Shown here in pieces: positions 54,810 to 63,979 of a stretch of DNA of 64,000 bases. The notes under the pieces are model-generated. The model ran no database searches and was not told the DNA's origin. It saw only the letters and a list, made by a program, of their open reading frames with translations. A program made the translations under genes and the position numbers. How positions within the stretch are numbered: position 1 is the first letter of the stretch; each line of letters begins with the position of its first letter. The stretch spans positions 1,426,001-1,490,000 of the forward strand of contig NZ_BQYL01000001.1 of assembly GCF_023706045.1 (NCBI RefSeq), given 5' to 3'. Origin of the DNA: Kangiella sp. TOML190 (GTDB taxonomy: Bacteria > Pseudomonadota > Gammaproteobacteria > Enterobacterales > Kangiellaceae).

Positions 54810-55820
54810 ATGAAAAAAGGGCGCTTAATTAGCGACGAATTGCTGATCCGCTTGGCGGGAGAGCCTGCATTTCGCCGAGGCTAGCAGTATTTTAAGGAAG
54901 GGCGAGTGATGGATTTGCTCGAATACAAGCTTGGATATCAGGCTTTGGTTGCTGGAAGCGCCAATTATCGGATGAAAATTGAACACACTGCTAAGCAGCT
55001 TAATGGTTCTTGCAGTTGTCCTGCCTCTGAAAATTTTGATTTTTGTAAGCATTGTATGGCGGTTGCCCTGTGTTTGGCACAGATGCAAACCGAACAGCTA
55101 GAGCAAGGCGCTAAGCTAACGCCAGCGCAAAATGAGCTGCTGCAAATCGAAGCATTTTTACAAGCGCAATCGGTACAAACTCTGTCAGAAGCTTTGATGG
55201 AATACATCGTTAAAGATAGATCAGAGCGTAATCGCTGGTTGTTAAAAATTGCGCTAAGTGGTGAATTTGATGCTAAAGCCGTGAAAAAACGCATTACCGC
55301 AGCGACTCGTGGGCGGCATATTTGGGAATATGCCAAAGTTCGAGCTTTTTTCGAACCGATAGAAGAGTTGAGTTTTCATTTGTTGAAGTTAGCCAATTCG
55401 CAGGCCGATACTGAACAGGTGATTAAGCTGATTGATTATTGCTGCGAACGGATAGATCTCGCTTGTGATAAAGTGGACGACTCGGGTGGTTTCCGTTTGG
55501 GAGCAGTCGAGTTATTGGGGCAGGCTTATGAGGCAGCGTTGGATAAGTTGAAACTGAGCGACGAGAAACTGACCGCTTATATTTTCGACCGCCTAACTCA
55601 TCGCAATGATATTTTCTATTATTCTTTGGAGCTTTATCAGTCTCTGCTTAATAGAAATGTGTTATCAAAGCTTCGTTTATTAGCGCAGGAAAAGTTTGCC
55701 AAAACCCCTAAGGCCAGTTATGAGCGCAACAGCTTTGAGCAGGATTGGCAAGCGATTCGGCAATACGACAATATAAAAAGACTAGTTGAAGAGCTGGAAC
55801 AGTTTTCTGGAATAAACTGA
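54810..55820 (+). pseudogene. SWIM zinc-finger protein gene interrupted by an in-frame TAG
   Basis: ATG at 54810 begins a frame typical of SWIM proteins (LLIRLAGEPAFRRG), then TAG at 54882-54884 interrupts it exactly where the family has RGxxYFxxGxV; after the stop the frame continues QYFKEGRVMDLLEYK without a shift. The SWIM motif is CSCPASENFDFCKHC (CxC-x8-CxxC, where family members usually have CxH). The rest, about 230 residues, is helical. A GTG at 54906 or ATG at 54909 behind AAGGAAGGG could restart translation and give about 304 residues containing the SWIM motif. Options are a recent nonsense mutation, sequencing error, suppression or reinitiation. SWIM domains bind DNA or protein; the partner is unknown. 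Confidence 0.7.
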
Positions 55821-60360: not shown

Positions 60361-60396
60361 ATGATATGGAAGATGGGCATTAGCATTGCCGCTTAA
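60361..60396 (+). other. Possible 11-codon leader frame overlapping the transporter start
   Basis: ATG at 60361, with AGGA upstream, opens an 11-codon frame (MIWKMGISIAA) whose stop lies ten bases past the TTG start of the transporter, in another frame. It could couple translation to the TTG start, or signal a one-base sequence error at the N-terminus of the transporter. Confidence 0.3.
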
Positions 60397-62020
60397 ATAC
60401 CGTTATTACAATTGGTCTGAAAGGCTAATTTCGCGCTTTACATGGGTCCAGCAGGGGGAAGGCCATAGCGTTTTATTGATGTTTTTTAGCTTTTTTACCC
60501 TGATGTTTGCGTATTATTTGTTAAAAGTAATCCGTGATCCCTTAATCTTGTCGGAGGGTAGCGCCGAATTAAAAAGTTATACAACTGCTGCTCAAGCCCT
60601 TATTTTATTGTTCATAGTTCCTTTCTATAGCCGTTATTATTACAAATTTTCTAAACATCACGATAAGTCAATTTTCCTTAATCGCGTGATTTATTTTTTC
60701 ATTACTAACTTGCTGGTGTTTGTTCTGTTACTGCACTTGGAAATTCCGATAAGCATAATTTTCTACGTTTGGTTAGGAGTACTAAGTGTCACTTTAGTCG
60801 CTATTTACTGGGCCTTTTGCGCCGATTGCTTCAACGTAAAATCCGGTAAGCGCCTTTTTTCGGTGATAGCACTTGGCGGCTCAATTGGCGCTTGGGTAGG
60901 AGCGAAATCGGCAGGTTGGCTCTATCCAATTATGGGGATAGCCGGATTATTATTGGCCGCCGCATCATTATTACTGATAGTCTCTTTTTTACTTAAGAGT
61001 GCTTGTCGCTCTATTCCTGTTAACTCTCGTGCCGTGAAACATATCGATGAAGACGAACAGTCGCGTGACTGGAAACGCGGATTTTCATTAATTTTCAAAA
61101 AAAAATACCTGCTGTATATTGCCATTTTCGTGGTGTTGGTAAACTGGGTTAACTCCATGGGCGAGTATATTTTAGCCAAGTTTGTAGTAGCTTCGGTAGA
61201 TGAAAAAGTGGCGCAAGGCCTTGGCACTGAGCAGGCCTTAATGACCGAGTTTTACACGGATTATATTGCTTGGTTCACCTTGTTTGGAATTGCCTTACAA
61301 TTATTGATAGTGCCACGCTTGTTTCGTTGGATAGGGGTTGGAGGTAGTATTTTAATATTACCTTTGGTTACCTTAATTAACTATAGTCTAATTTTTATCT
61401 TCCCACTGATGCTGGTGGTTACTTGGGCCATGATCGCTGAAAATAGTGTCAATTACTCGATCCAAAATACCAGCCGTCATGCACTATTTCTTAATATTTC
61501 TCGCGAAGAAAAATACCTGAGCAAAAATACCATTGATTCCTTTTTCTATCGTTTTGGCGATTTGTTATATGGCGGTACTATTGCTTTGACCGTCGGCCTC
61601 TTTGCCTTGGACATAAAGTTGGTAATTGGTATCGCTGTGGTTTTATCTTTGATGAGCTTGTGGGTTGCTTTTCAAATTAAGGTTAAGAAAAAACAAGACA
61701 AGCAAAATGCAGAACCTAATCGACCGCCTACGTTAGCTTATCCATTGCAACCGCAGGCGGTTATTTCTGGCCAGAAAACCATCTTAACTTTGCCAGAAAA
61801 TACCTTTGAAGATCCTGATCTTGGCGACTCCCTGCGTTACTCAATTAAAGCCGTCGATGGTCATGCATTGCCCAAGTGGTGTAAGTTTAACAATACCACT
61901 ATGGCGCTGAGCGTGCGCCCGCCAGAAGGGCTTCGTCAAGAATTAAAAATAGAAATTATGGCTACTGACTACGACGGTCTTACTGCCACCACCCTGTTAG
62001 TGATCGATGTCGAAGGTTAG
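60386..62020 (+). CDS. TLC-type nucleotide transporter fused to a cadherin-like (CADG) domain
   Basis: A 544-residue protein. Residues 28-430 hold about twelve membrane helices and the hallmarks of the TLC (ATP/ADP translocase, NTP/NTP exchange) family in free-living bacteria: YYLLKVIRDPLIL in helix 1, NSMGEYILAKFVV, and ENSVNYSIQNTSRHALF followed by EEKYLSKNTIDSFFYRFGD. Residues about 446-544 form a dystroglycan-type cadherin-like domain (PENTFEDPDLGDSLRYS, DGHALPKWCKF, ATDYDGLTATT). Positive residues after the last helix (IKVKKKQDK) predict this domain on the cytoplasmic side. The only start in frame is TTG. Substrate is unproven; nucleotides are inferred from the family. It converges on the phosphatase-kinase gene. 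Confidence 0.8.
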   Translation: MPLKYRYYNWSERLISRFTWVQQGEGHSVLLMFFSFFTLMFAYYLLKVIRDPLILSEGSAELKSYTTAAQALILLFIVPFYSRYYYKFSKHHDKSIFLNRVIYFFITNLLVFVLLLHLEIPISIIFYVWLGVLSVTLVAIYWAFCADCFNVKSGKRLFSVIALGGSIGAWVGAKSAGWLYPIMGIAGLLLAAASLLLIVSFLLKSACRSIPVNSRAVKHIDEDEQSRDWKRGFSLIFKKKYLLYIAIFVVLVNWVNSMGEYILAKFVVASVDEKVAQGLGTEQALMTEFYTDYIAWFTLFGIALQLLIVPRLFRWIGVGGSILILPLVTLINYSLIFIFPLMLVVTWAMIAENSVNYSIQNTSRHALFLNISREEKYLSKNTIDSFFYRFGDLLYGGTIALTVGLFALDIKLVIGIAVVLSLMSLWVAFQIKVKKKQDKQNAEPNRPPTLAYPLQPQAVISGQKTILTLPENTFEDPDLGDSLRYSIKAVDGHALPKWCKFNNTTMALSVRPPEGLRQELKIEIMATDYDGLTATTLLVIDVEG

Positions 62021-62023
62021 CCG

Positions 62024-63979
62024 TTAACCTTTATCAAAGTATTCAATGATATTATCTCGGCGCTTTAAGATGGAATTAATCTGTTGGCTTTGTAAGTAGT
62101 CCCCGAGAGCTTTATTTAACTCTTCCCGATTAAGAGCTTGTAAGGCCTTTTGGAAAGAAAATGATATTTTGGTTGGGGGTTTGAAGCGTTCATTTTGAAA
62201 TAGTGCATTTTTTACTCTGAATGCGCGGGTGTGATCGATCAGCCATAGTTGAGCGTTCTTTTCTGTATACAGTTCATTGCCCGTATTTCTGTCCTCGTTA
62301 TGAATGAGCCAATCAAAAATTTGCATAATATCGCGACTCGACTTTTGACTACAAAAACCACTCAGTTTTCGTTTTTCTTGAATCAATTCGCTTTTGCTAA
62401 CAGAATCTTCAATCCAGTATTGTAAAATCCCTTTCATATTCTTGTAACGGTACTCCATTGTGAAAGGGACCATATTGAGCCCGAGCAAACGATCCAATTT
62501 GTAGGCGGCAATATCGTAGACAAATCGATCAGCATAATTTCCTATTCGTTTCCAGCGTTTGTCTTCGAGCTTTGGATCGGTATCAAGGTATTTAAAAATG
62601 GCGCGTCGCTGCTTGCCGTCAAGCTCGAAAGTTAGGCGCAAGGGCCGAGTATAAAAATCACCGAGCGTCTTCTCTTCTACAACTTTTGCTTTTTGGTAGA
62701 AAGGCGCCAATTGAGCATCGCCAAGATCGTTGGCATAGAGTGGTTTTCGAACCGGATCTGGGGTTGGTTGAGTGTTAGCGCTATCATGCAGATTTAACAC
62801 TTTTAAGCCGGCAGTATCAATCTGAACCAAGCTTGGGTGGCCTTTGTAATGACTTTGCAGCATACCAGTATCAAGCATGATGACCTTGCCATCAAAGCGT
62901 GAACGAACTAGGCGGCTTTTATCGGGAGTATGCCCTAGAAAAATTTGATTAGCATTGAAGTAGTTTAAAGCATGATCAACGGTTAACTCCTCGGAAAATT
63001 CATGGCAATACATATTACCGCGATACCAAGTTGGCCCGAAACTATCGAAAATAAGGGAGTCAGATAGCGTTATAAACTCCCGAGCTTTTTTTCTAATCGA
63101 GCGTTTATTGAGGGCTCGACTTCTAATTTTGCCGTCAATCAGCGACTGGGCGACATCGTGTCTATCGAGTTTGTTAAAATAATACTTAAATAGCCCAGCT
63201 TCGGTTAGTTCTCTCCATAGCGTTGCATATTGAGTCAACTCATCGCGAAATTGTTGATTAAGCTGTTGCTCGCTTAGGCCAGTAGCTAATAGCTTTGGTG
63301 AAAAGCCGCCATGAGCGAATAGTTTGTTTTGTTGGCTCAAGATAAAGTCCTTACTCAATAGCCAACGACCATAGTGTCCATCCGGGGAATAGGCTTGGAC
63401 TAAACCAAAATAACCCAATGGGTAAAGATTGGTAAACTTTGCTTTACTCTCAGCATTGTCTTTTAGCGATGAGTAATCCAAAAAATCCTGATAAACCGAT
63501 TGGCGTTTTTCGGCAAGCTCTATATCGGCAAAAGAGGCATATTCAGCATCCGAGACGTAGCGCAGATCACCGCGAATATTCATGACTTCATGATTACCCA
63601 ATACCATATAAAAAGCCCCGCCAGCTTTTTCTGCTTGCACTTCCAGTTGCATAAAAAAGTCGAGAATTTTCCTAGAGTCAGGGCCGCGGTCGAGCAGATC
63701 GCCTAAGCTGACGAAAATGCGATCGCCAGCTATCCAGTTGAGCTTTTCATCGATGATTTTGCCTGCTTGTAGCAGAGTTATCATGGTTTGGTAGTCACCA
63801 TGGACATCTGCCATTACCGTCATCGGCTTAGCGCTTGCGGGTAATGCAGTCATAGCATTGATGGTAGTGGATAGCTGTGCTTTCTGAGCAGAGCGCTCAG
63901 CGGCTACAAGCGTCGCGGTGGCTAGGTTGCTAATTTGCAGAAAGACTGCTAACAAAGTGGACGATAGATAGACCTTCAT
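62024..63979 (-). CDS. Exported metallophosphatase fused to an atypical kinase-like domain
   Basis: From ATG 63979 (GGAG eight bases upstream) the protein has 651 residues: a signal peptide (LSSTLLAVFLQISNLATA), then a PPP-type phosphoesterase with ADVHGDY (57-63), GDLLDRG (93-99), GNHE (128-131), AHGGFSP (222-228) and GHTP (349-352). The second half (about 440-610) has kinase-like motifs: AIFKYLD with a candidate ATP-binding Lys463, WLIHNEDRNTGN with candidate catalytic Asp563, and LIDHTRAF with candidate metal-binding Asp582. These resemble FAM20C (GNMDRHH, HLDNGRGF), PI3/4-kinases and HipA. The order phosphatase then kinase in one exported chain is unusual. Activity and substrate are unknown. 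Confidence 0.75.
   Translation of the reverse strand: MKVYLSSTLLAVFLQISNLATATLVAAERSAQKAQLSTTINAMTALPASAKPMTVMADVHGDYQTMITLLQAGKIIDEKLNWIAGDRIFVSLGDLLDRGPDSRKILDFFMQLEVQAEKAGGAFYMVLGNHEVMNIRGDLRYVSDAEYASFADIELAEKRQSVYQDFLDYSSLKDNAESKAKFTNLYPLGYFGLVQAYSPDGHYGRWLLSKDFILSQQNKLFAHGGFSPKLLATGLSEQQLNQQFRDELTQYATLWRELTEAGLFKYYFNKLDRHDVAQSLIDGKIRSRALNKRSIRKKAREFITLSDSLIFDSFGPTWYRGNMYCHEFSEELTVDHALNYFNANQIFLGHTPDKSRLVRSRFDGKVIMLDTGMLQSHYKGHPSLVQIDTAGLKVLNLHDSANTQPTPDPVRKPLYANDLGDAQLAPFYQKAKVVEEKTLGDFYTRPLRLTFELDGKQRRAIFKYLDTDPKLEDKRWKRIGNYADRFVYDIAAYKLDRLLGLNMVPFTMEYRYKNMKGILQYWIEDSVSKSELIQEKRKLSGFCSQKSSRDIMQIFDWLIHNEDRNTGNELYTEKNAQLWLIDHTRAFRVKNALFQNERFKPPTKISFSFQKALQALNREELNKALGDYLQSQQINSILKRRDNIIEYFDKG

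Follow-up and report, generated by a model that had tools for sequence, protein, structure and literature searches.

A predicted exported phosphatase–kinase fusion in Kangiella, its nucleotide-transporter-type neighbour and a possible module for phosphorylation outside the bacterial cytoplasm

Type II phosphatidylinositol 4-kinases (PI4KII) are membrane-associated lipid kinases of eukaryotes, HipA acts in the cytoplasm, and AceK, PFK2/FBPase2 and Pnkp are bifunctional cytoplasmic kinase/phosphatases not known to be built from the folds described here. Parts of PMC9758233 place FAM20 in eukaryotic- or Metazoa-specific clusters and report that four novel Legionella families cluster with the FAM20/CotH group, and a passage of PMC12189002 names CotH as a bacterial kinase similar to Fam20C. 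Every nucleotide transporter of the NTT type with a functional characterisation is from a parasite or an endosymbiotic organelle, although NTT genes are also common among free-living bacteria (PMC5381601, in part). Here we describe a gene from a 64,000-nucleotide stretch of the genome of Kangiella sp. TOML190 (hereafter the window, whose numbering is used throughout) that encodes a predicted exported fusion of a PPP phosphatase with a kinase fold and adjoins an NTT-type gene. We computed its reading frame, predicted fold, residue conservation and cysteine pairing, and traced across phyla how the genes for kinase, phosphatase and NTT are linked. In our judgement the chances are evenly balanced that these parts form a bacterial extracytoplasmic phosphorylation module in which the NTT supplies adenosine triphosphate (ATP), the kinase writes and the phosphatase erases.

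The fusion gene lies on the minus strand, with an ATG start at 63979 and a TAA stop at 62024-62026; the plus strand of 62024-63979 contains many stops. Its features are as follows, with residue counts over 68 kinases.

62024..63979, minus strand: coding sequence of the exported-type PPP phosphatase/kinase-fold fusion (P0001), 651 amino acids
63905..63979, minus strand: signal-peptide-like N-terminus, about residues 1-25 (hydropathy heuristic and alignment, extent by eye)
62777..63835, minus strand: PPP metallophosphatase domain, residues 49-401, Shewanella-type (Shelph-like)
62027..62704, minus strand: FAM20/PI4KII-like kinase-fold domain, residues 426-651
62591..62593, minus strand: codon of Lys463, candidate ATP-lysine (K 46, R 21, H 1)
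62291..62293, minus strand: codon of Asp563, candidate catalytic base (68/68)
62234..62236, minus strand: codon of Asp582, candidate metal-binding residue (68/68)
63005..63007, minus strand: codon of Cys325, phosphatase domain
62351..62353, minus strand: codon of Cys543, kinase domain

A first-pass annotation had proposed a signal peptide, a PPP phosphatase with the motifs ADVHGDY, GDLLDRG, GNHE, HGGFSP and GHTP, and three kinase motifs (Lys463, HNEDRNTGN with Asp563, and LIDHTRAF with Asp582). Each phosphatase and kinase motif was found at the residue numbers proposed. The phosphatase is of the Shewanella type and intact: every metal-ligand and signature motif of PPP enzymes (DxHG, GDxxDRG, GNHE, HGG, GHT) is present, and the Pfam Metallophos match is above cut-off (1.3e-12). 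Support for a signal-peptide-type N-terminus came solely from a hydropathy heuristic, which gave such a start for the window protein and for 63/67 loci; the heuristic is generous in that the best of several starts was taken, and L083, L091, L100 and L101 were left out. A lipobox-like Cys near the N-terminus occurs in L002/L031 and in three congeners with a degenerate kinase (L010-L012), and none is present in the window protein, so those relatives may make the fusion as a lipoprotein. The C-terminal half had been called kinase-like, and the fold search set as the test of that claim gave a FAM20/PI4KII-type kinase fold and did not refute it. These predictions support a protein in which a FAM20/PI4KII-type kinase fold follows a signal-peptide-type N-terminus and a PPP phosphatase. 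Because congeneric homologues are 51-64% identical and the ratio of nonsynonymous to synonymous substitution (dN/dS) in the single intact pair of close relatives measured, L008/L009, is 0.07 for the phosphatase (92.5% identity) and 0.11 for the kinase (89.5%), the reading frame is not a product of chance. One copy of the fusion protein is present in the 2.45 Mb single-contig genome.

As a comparison with described kinases, the Fam20C gathering score (26.8 bits) was not reached by the isolated kinase domain (20.3) or by the whole protein (18.2), and PI3_PI4_kinase was below the Pfam cut-off in the whole-protein scan. The HipA_2 profile scored 27.9 bits with the isolated domain and 25.7 with the whole protein (cut-off 27), the match spanning only about 50 of the 240 positions in the profile. 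The sequence-profile match between the window kinase and PI4KII was only 0.03; CotH, HipT/HipA and CtkA gave lower fold Z scores, and none of these three was among the sequence-profile matches listed at E values of 10 or below. By our mapping, Lys463, Asp484, Asp563 and Asp582 align with the FAM20 Lys–acidic pair, catalytic Asp and metal Asp, the pair being Lys133/Asp152 in hmFam20, for which the residue roles are given in part of PMC5865150. In the same mapping, the sugar-binding His301 and Lys321 of FAM20B correspond to Asn565 and Arg585. Unlike FAM20A, FAM20B and FAM20C of animals, the window kinase is bacterial, has about 226 residues, falls below the Fam20C cut-off and is joined to, or accompanied by, a PPP phosphatase. 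Chains of the Shewanella cold-active tyrosine phosphatase (1v73/2z72) and of the Shewanella-like phosphatases differ from the fusion in lacking a kinase domain. AceK, PFK2/FBPase2 and Pnkp combine two activities in one protein, as is proposed for the fusion, but do so in the cytoplasm. The polypeptide is built from known kinds, a FAM20/PI4KII-like kinase and a Shewanella-type phosphatase.

Three other assignments were considered. Membership of the CotH or HipA families was set aside on the profile list and the fold Z scores, although absence from the list proves nothing. A cytoplasmic HipA-type toxin was rejected on its flanks, which are NTT-type and clpX-like (a sequence-based name); no dedicated toxin-antitoxin search was made. 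A polynucleotide kinase-phosphatase was also rejected, the NCBIfam model bacter_Pnkp touching the phosphatase part only and far below cut-off.

The architecture had been presented as one with no described bacterial example; it is not peculiar to this genome and belongs to a family found across several phyla. A kinase scan with a 10-row alignment, built without the three degenerate congeners, against a collection of one genome per species (84,980 species) returned 71 related loci, 40 of them long fusion frames. Most fusions are from Gammaproteobacteria (Kangiella, Halieaceae, Neiella, one Shewanella and one metagenome-assembled genome (MAG) of Thalassotalea), and others are from a Deltaproteobacteria MAG (L039), a Latescibacterota MAG (L081) and Acidobacteria (L083). 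Six further fusions (L115, L116, L119-L122) were present in 14 Acidobacteriota stretches, in which the long frames L117 and L118 gave no phosphatase match. A Pseudomonadota-wide kinase scan matched 5/398 genomes, namely this genome and four with weak partial matches. Loci from the protein query and from the profile scan overlap; for example, L031 and L002 are apparently the same gene. Residue counts cover 67 loci and the window protein, L091, L099, L100 and L101 having been dropped as truncated or distant; L091 and L100 are truncated by the start of their contigs and may or may not be fusions, and L092 was left out of the kinase alignment and tree. The full-length model alignment (A4) holds 32/40 fusions and 12/27 stand-alone kinases. 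Nearest to the window protein on the tree are L031, from an uncultured Kangiella, and the rows of three named species of the genus.

Asp563, Asn568 and Asp582 are present in 68/68 kinases. For Asp563 this is partly built in, because one of the two search patterns used, FDxLI[YHF]N[DE]D, contains that residue; Asp582 and Asn568 lie outside both patterns. Arg at position 463 is concentrated in the stand-alone kinases, with 19 of the 21 cases among 27 such proteins.

The fusion is not the sole sign that kinase and phosphatase are paired, because split genes share loci: a stand-alone kinase and a stand-alone PPP phosphatase occur together in L068, L074, L076, L086 and L091, where the phosphatases look exported by eye, and also in L125 and L127. 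In most stand-alone kinase loci no phosphatase was seen within the retrieved stretch. The fused or unfused state changes five times on the kinase tree, and at least three of these changes are forced by starred branches. That split genes still lie near each other after so many changes, and that a pair of cysteines (below) spans both domains, makes it most improbable that two unrelated exported domains were joined by chance and share no function, even though the two halves can decay separately, the phosphatase in L041 and the kinase in L010-L012.

Two related frames depart from the common form. In L041:450-2081, a fusion from a K189A-clade MAG, the phosphatase has lost its metal-ligand positions beside an intact kinase, opposite to the pattern of the Kangiella losses described below. 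In L019:73-2115 a related PPP phosphatase runs on into a long repetitive C-terminal part that is not a kinase.

The window protein has two cysteines only, Cys325 and Cys543, one in each domain. Both are present in 39/41 fusions and neither in the remaining two (L081 and L083), and Cys occurs at position 543 in 1/27 stand-alone kinases. Within the genus both are present in 12/12 fusions recovered with the protein query, including this one and the three with a degenerate kinase. This pattern points to a possible disulfide between the domains, formed in an oxidising compartment.

The fusion gene converges with an NTT-type gene, and 3 bases separate the two stop codons.

60386..62020, plus strand: NTT/TLC-family (ATP/ADP-translocase-type) membrane protein with a C-terminal immunoglobulin-like (Ig-like) domain, 544 amino acids
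61724..62011, plus strand: He_PIG Ig-like domain of the NTT-type protein (6.9e-10)

Like the NTT/TLC translocases, this protein matches Pfam TLC (PF03219) above cut-off (22.2 bits versus 21), as do 9/10 other NTT members scanned, L031 being below. The best PDB profile matches of the group are carriers of adenosine diphosphate (ADP) and ATP (9.5e-27 and 8.2e-17 along the membrane part). In an alignment of 17 hand-picked members (A5), by our mapping, a K/R like K155 of plant NTT1 is present in 14/17, and an E/D like E385, which we take to be a further important charged residue of that protein, in 17/17. An NTT-type gene is present in 26/40 fusion loci, being directly downstream on the same strand in 17, convergent in 7 and otherwise placed in 2. 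In L076 four packed genes on one strand follow the order PPP, kinase, NTT, kinase, and in L120 the order is fusion, NTT, kinase, kinase. Where the fusion had been proposed as a self-contained switch, these arrangements tie its kinase to a nucleotide-transporter-type gene.

Some of these neighbourhoods show further peculiarities. A kinase paralogue in L120 (6911-8359, minus strand) is without the catalytic-loop motif and lies beside an intact kinase, NTT and fusion, an arrangement that recalls the FAM20A/FAM20C pseudokinase pairing. In L095:6711-9155 of Shewanella sp. there is another kinase-like frame, together with an NTT-type gene that is broken across two reading frames. The kinase-adjacent NTT-type proteins of L079:2519-5725 and L081:6781-9537 have HEAT repeats, and that of L079 also has a cyclic-nucleotide-binding domain. 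In the genome of Kangiella sp. TOML190 a second, distant NTT-type gene lies away from the kinase (contig C1:30377-31642).

The link between kinase and NTT is also seen in natural losses within the genus. Nine of 13 Kangiella genomes, this one included, have an intact kinase, and in 9/9 the NTT-type gene adjoins it; in 3/3 congeners with a degenerate kinase the NTT is missing from that place, and one genome has neither. The sole match to the NTT membrane part in the three degenerate congeners is distant and elsewhere (about 1e-67), like the second gene of TOML190. Two of the three retain the clpP-like and clpX-like flanks (sequence-based names), with no NTT between clpP and the fusion; in the third, genes named pilin-like from sequence occupy the NTT position. 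Homologues without the Asp563/Asp582 pair had been named as evidence against the kinase reading, and three of 17 aligned rows are of this sort: the pair is kept in 14/17 and broken in L010 and L012, which have lost both residues, and in L011, which has lost Asp582 alone. In L010/L011, both with a degenerate kinase, the kinase is 71.8% identical with a dN/dS of 0.19, versus 90.4% and 0.08 for the phosphatase. Because the losses are confined to one genus and the kinase decays faster in the measured pair, we read them as secondary.

Across the order, an NTT (E<1e-100) was present in 14/15 of the genomes with the kinase (E<1e-60) and 0/182 of the others, 197 genomes in all (Fisher 1.6e-20). Among 139 Acidobacteriota genomes, 21/21 kinase carriers had an NTT versus 31/118 others (Fisher 4.8e-11), and kinase and NTT lay no more than 6 kb apart in 9/21 carriers. 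An NTT-type gene was found somewhere in all 26 genomes that hold the 27 kinase loci without a local NTT or with a stand-alone kinase. The Acidobacteriota sample is centred on G562, which was picked as a kinase carrier and is counted in the 21, the TOML190 genome is counted in the order's 15, and the genome sets for the order, for the 26-genome check and for Acidobacteriota have members in common. At most three NTT candidates per genome were scored in the Pseudomonadota scan and at most ten in Acidobacteriota, so the NTT counts may be low.

These results are consistent with the following mechanism, in which we infer the two enzymatic activities, the export of the fusion, its disulfide, its substrate, and what the NTT carries and in which direction. 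The fusion would be exported to the periplasm, as a soluble protein here and probably as a lipoprotein in some of its relatives. Its FAM20/PI4KII-type kinase would phosphorylate an envelope protein, glycan or lipid, the N-terminal PPP domain would take the phosphate off, and the two would be docked, probably through a Cys325-Cys543 disulfide. A periplasmic kinase would require a local nucleoside triphosphate and clearance of ADP. If the NTT exported ATP from the cytoplasm and took ADP back, driven by the high cytoplasmic ATP/ADP ratio, such an antiporter would meet both needs without net loss of adenine, and the kinase could work where ATP is otherwise scarce. Some bacteria may therefore carry out ATP-dependent phosphorylation outside the cytoplasm. 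The specific form, a counterpart of animal secretory-pathway phosphorylation in which an export-direction NTT antiporter feeds a periplasmic FAM20-like kinase disulfide-docked to a phosphatase, is put forward tentatively, as somewhat less probable than its negation.

Several observations weigh against this mechanism. No NTT was found in the stretch fetched for 14/40 fusion loci. NTT-type genes (E≤1e-25, hand count) occur in 55/398 Pseudomonadota genomes, this one included, so they are not confined to kinase carriers, and the 31 kinase-free Acidobacteriota genomes with an NTT-type gene are of the same kind. Shared ancestry is not corrected for in the co-occurrence tests, and as few as two events may account for the losses within the genus. 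Roles are described for K155, E245 and K527 of plant NTT1, with K527 tied to ATP binding (PMC3306366, in part); by our mapping, the K527 position is Asp in 15/17 NTT-type proteins and the E245 position Gly in 14/17. In this, as in their occurrence in bacteria other than the characterised parasites and, for the window type, in the C-terminal Ig-like domain, they are unlike characterised NTTs. Because these two equivalents are missing, the cargo may not be ATP: kinase and phosphatase might act as proposed while the NTT carries something other than ATP/ADP and the nucleotide is external or the phosphate donor another molecule. The fusion loci without a local NTT also fit such an arrangement, but we consider it unlikely, given that the best PDB profile matches are ADP,ATP carriers and that NTT presence and adjacency follow kinase integrity in the genus. 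Far less probable is nucleotide salvage or dinucleotide processing, in which the PPP domain would hydrolyse external nucleotides, the NTT import them and the kinase act on a nucleoside-like small molecule; pointing that way, the PPP part bears a faint resemblance to Ap4A hydrolases in NCBIfam, with scores well short of the cut-off.

A second difficulty for the proposed module is the Arg at the ATP-lysine position in 21/68 kinases. It would be more easily accommodated if the kinase fold bound nucleotide without phosphorylating, and regulated the exported phosphatase as a nucleotide sensor or a structural element, with the NTT setting the nucleotide level. That three congeners retain a degenerate kinase domain together with a better-conserved phosphatase and both cysteines is in line with such a role, as are the L120 paralogue without a catalytic loop and FAM20A, a known pseudokinase of what may be the nearest family (PMC5865150, in part). 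The presence of Asp563, Asn568 and Asp582 in all kinases (the first with the search bias noted above), however, argues for catalysis, and the faster evolution of the L010/L011 kinase (72% versus 90% identity) is expected if catalysis was selected. Stand-alone exported-type kinases also occur without a phosphatase in the same chain, and on balance a purely regulatory kinase fold seems to us improbable.

Among the papers listed by our searches of the open-access literature, which also covered periplasmic kinases, there was no description of a bacterial FAM20-like secreted kinase, a PPP–kinase fusion or the three-part module, which is not proof of absence. The main text of PMC5865150 contains no word starting with 'bacteri' or 'prokaryot', and the passages of PMC7948968 and PMC10870513 consulted yielded no bacterial FAM20 system. 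If its function is confirmed, the three-part module would be a new kind of bacterial system. Bacteria would then have a dedicated, separately fuelled way of adding and removing phosphate outside the cytoplasm, NTTs in free-living species would gain a function, and the view of the periplasm as a place without ATP-driven protein or glycan phosphorylation would be overturned. What the NTTs of such species do would become testable and, because FAM20 is treated as eukaryotic- or Metazoa-specific in the relevant part of PMC9758233, so would the origin of FAM20-type kinases. The fusion, the split clusters and the natural Kangiella loss series offer experimental material in marine bacteria that are not known to be pathogens.

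Elsewhere in the window, at 54906-55820, a protein with a SWIM-like zinc-finger motif (CSCPASENFDFCKHC) was recognised by eye.
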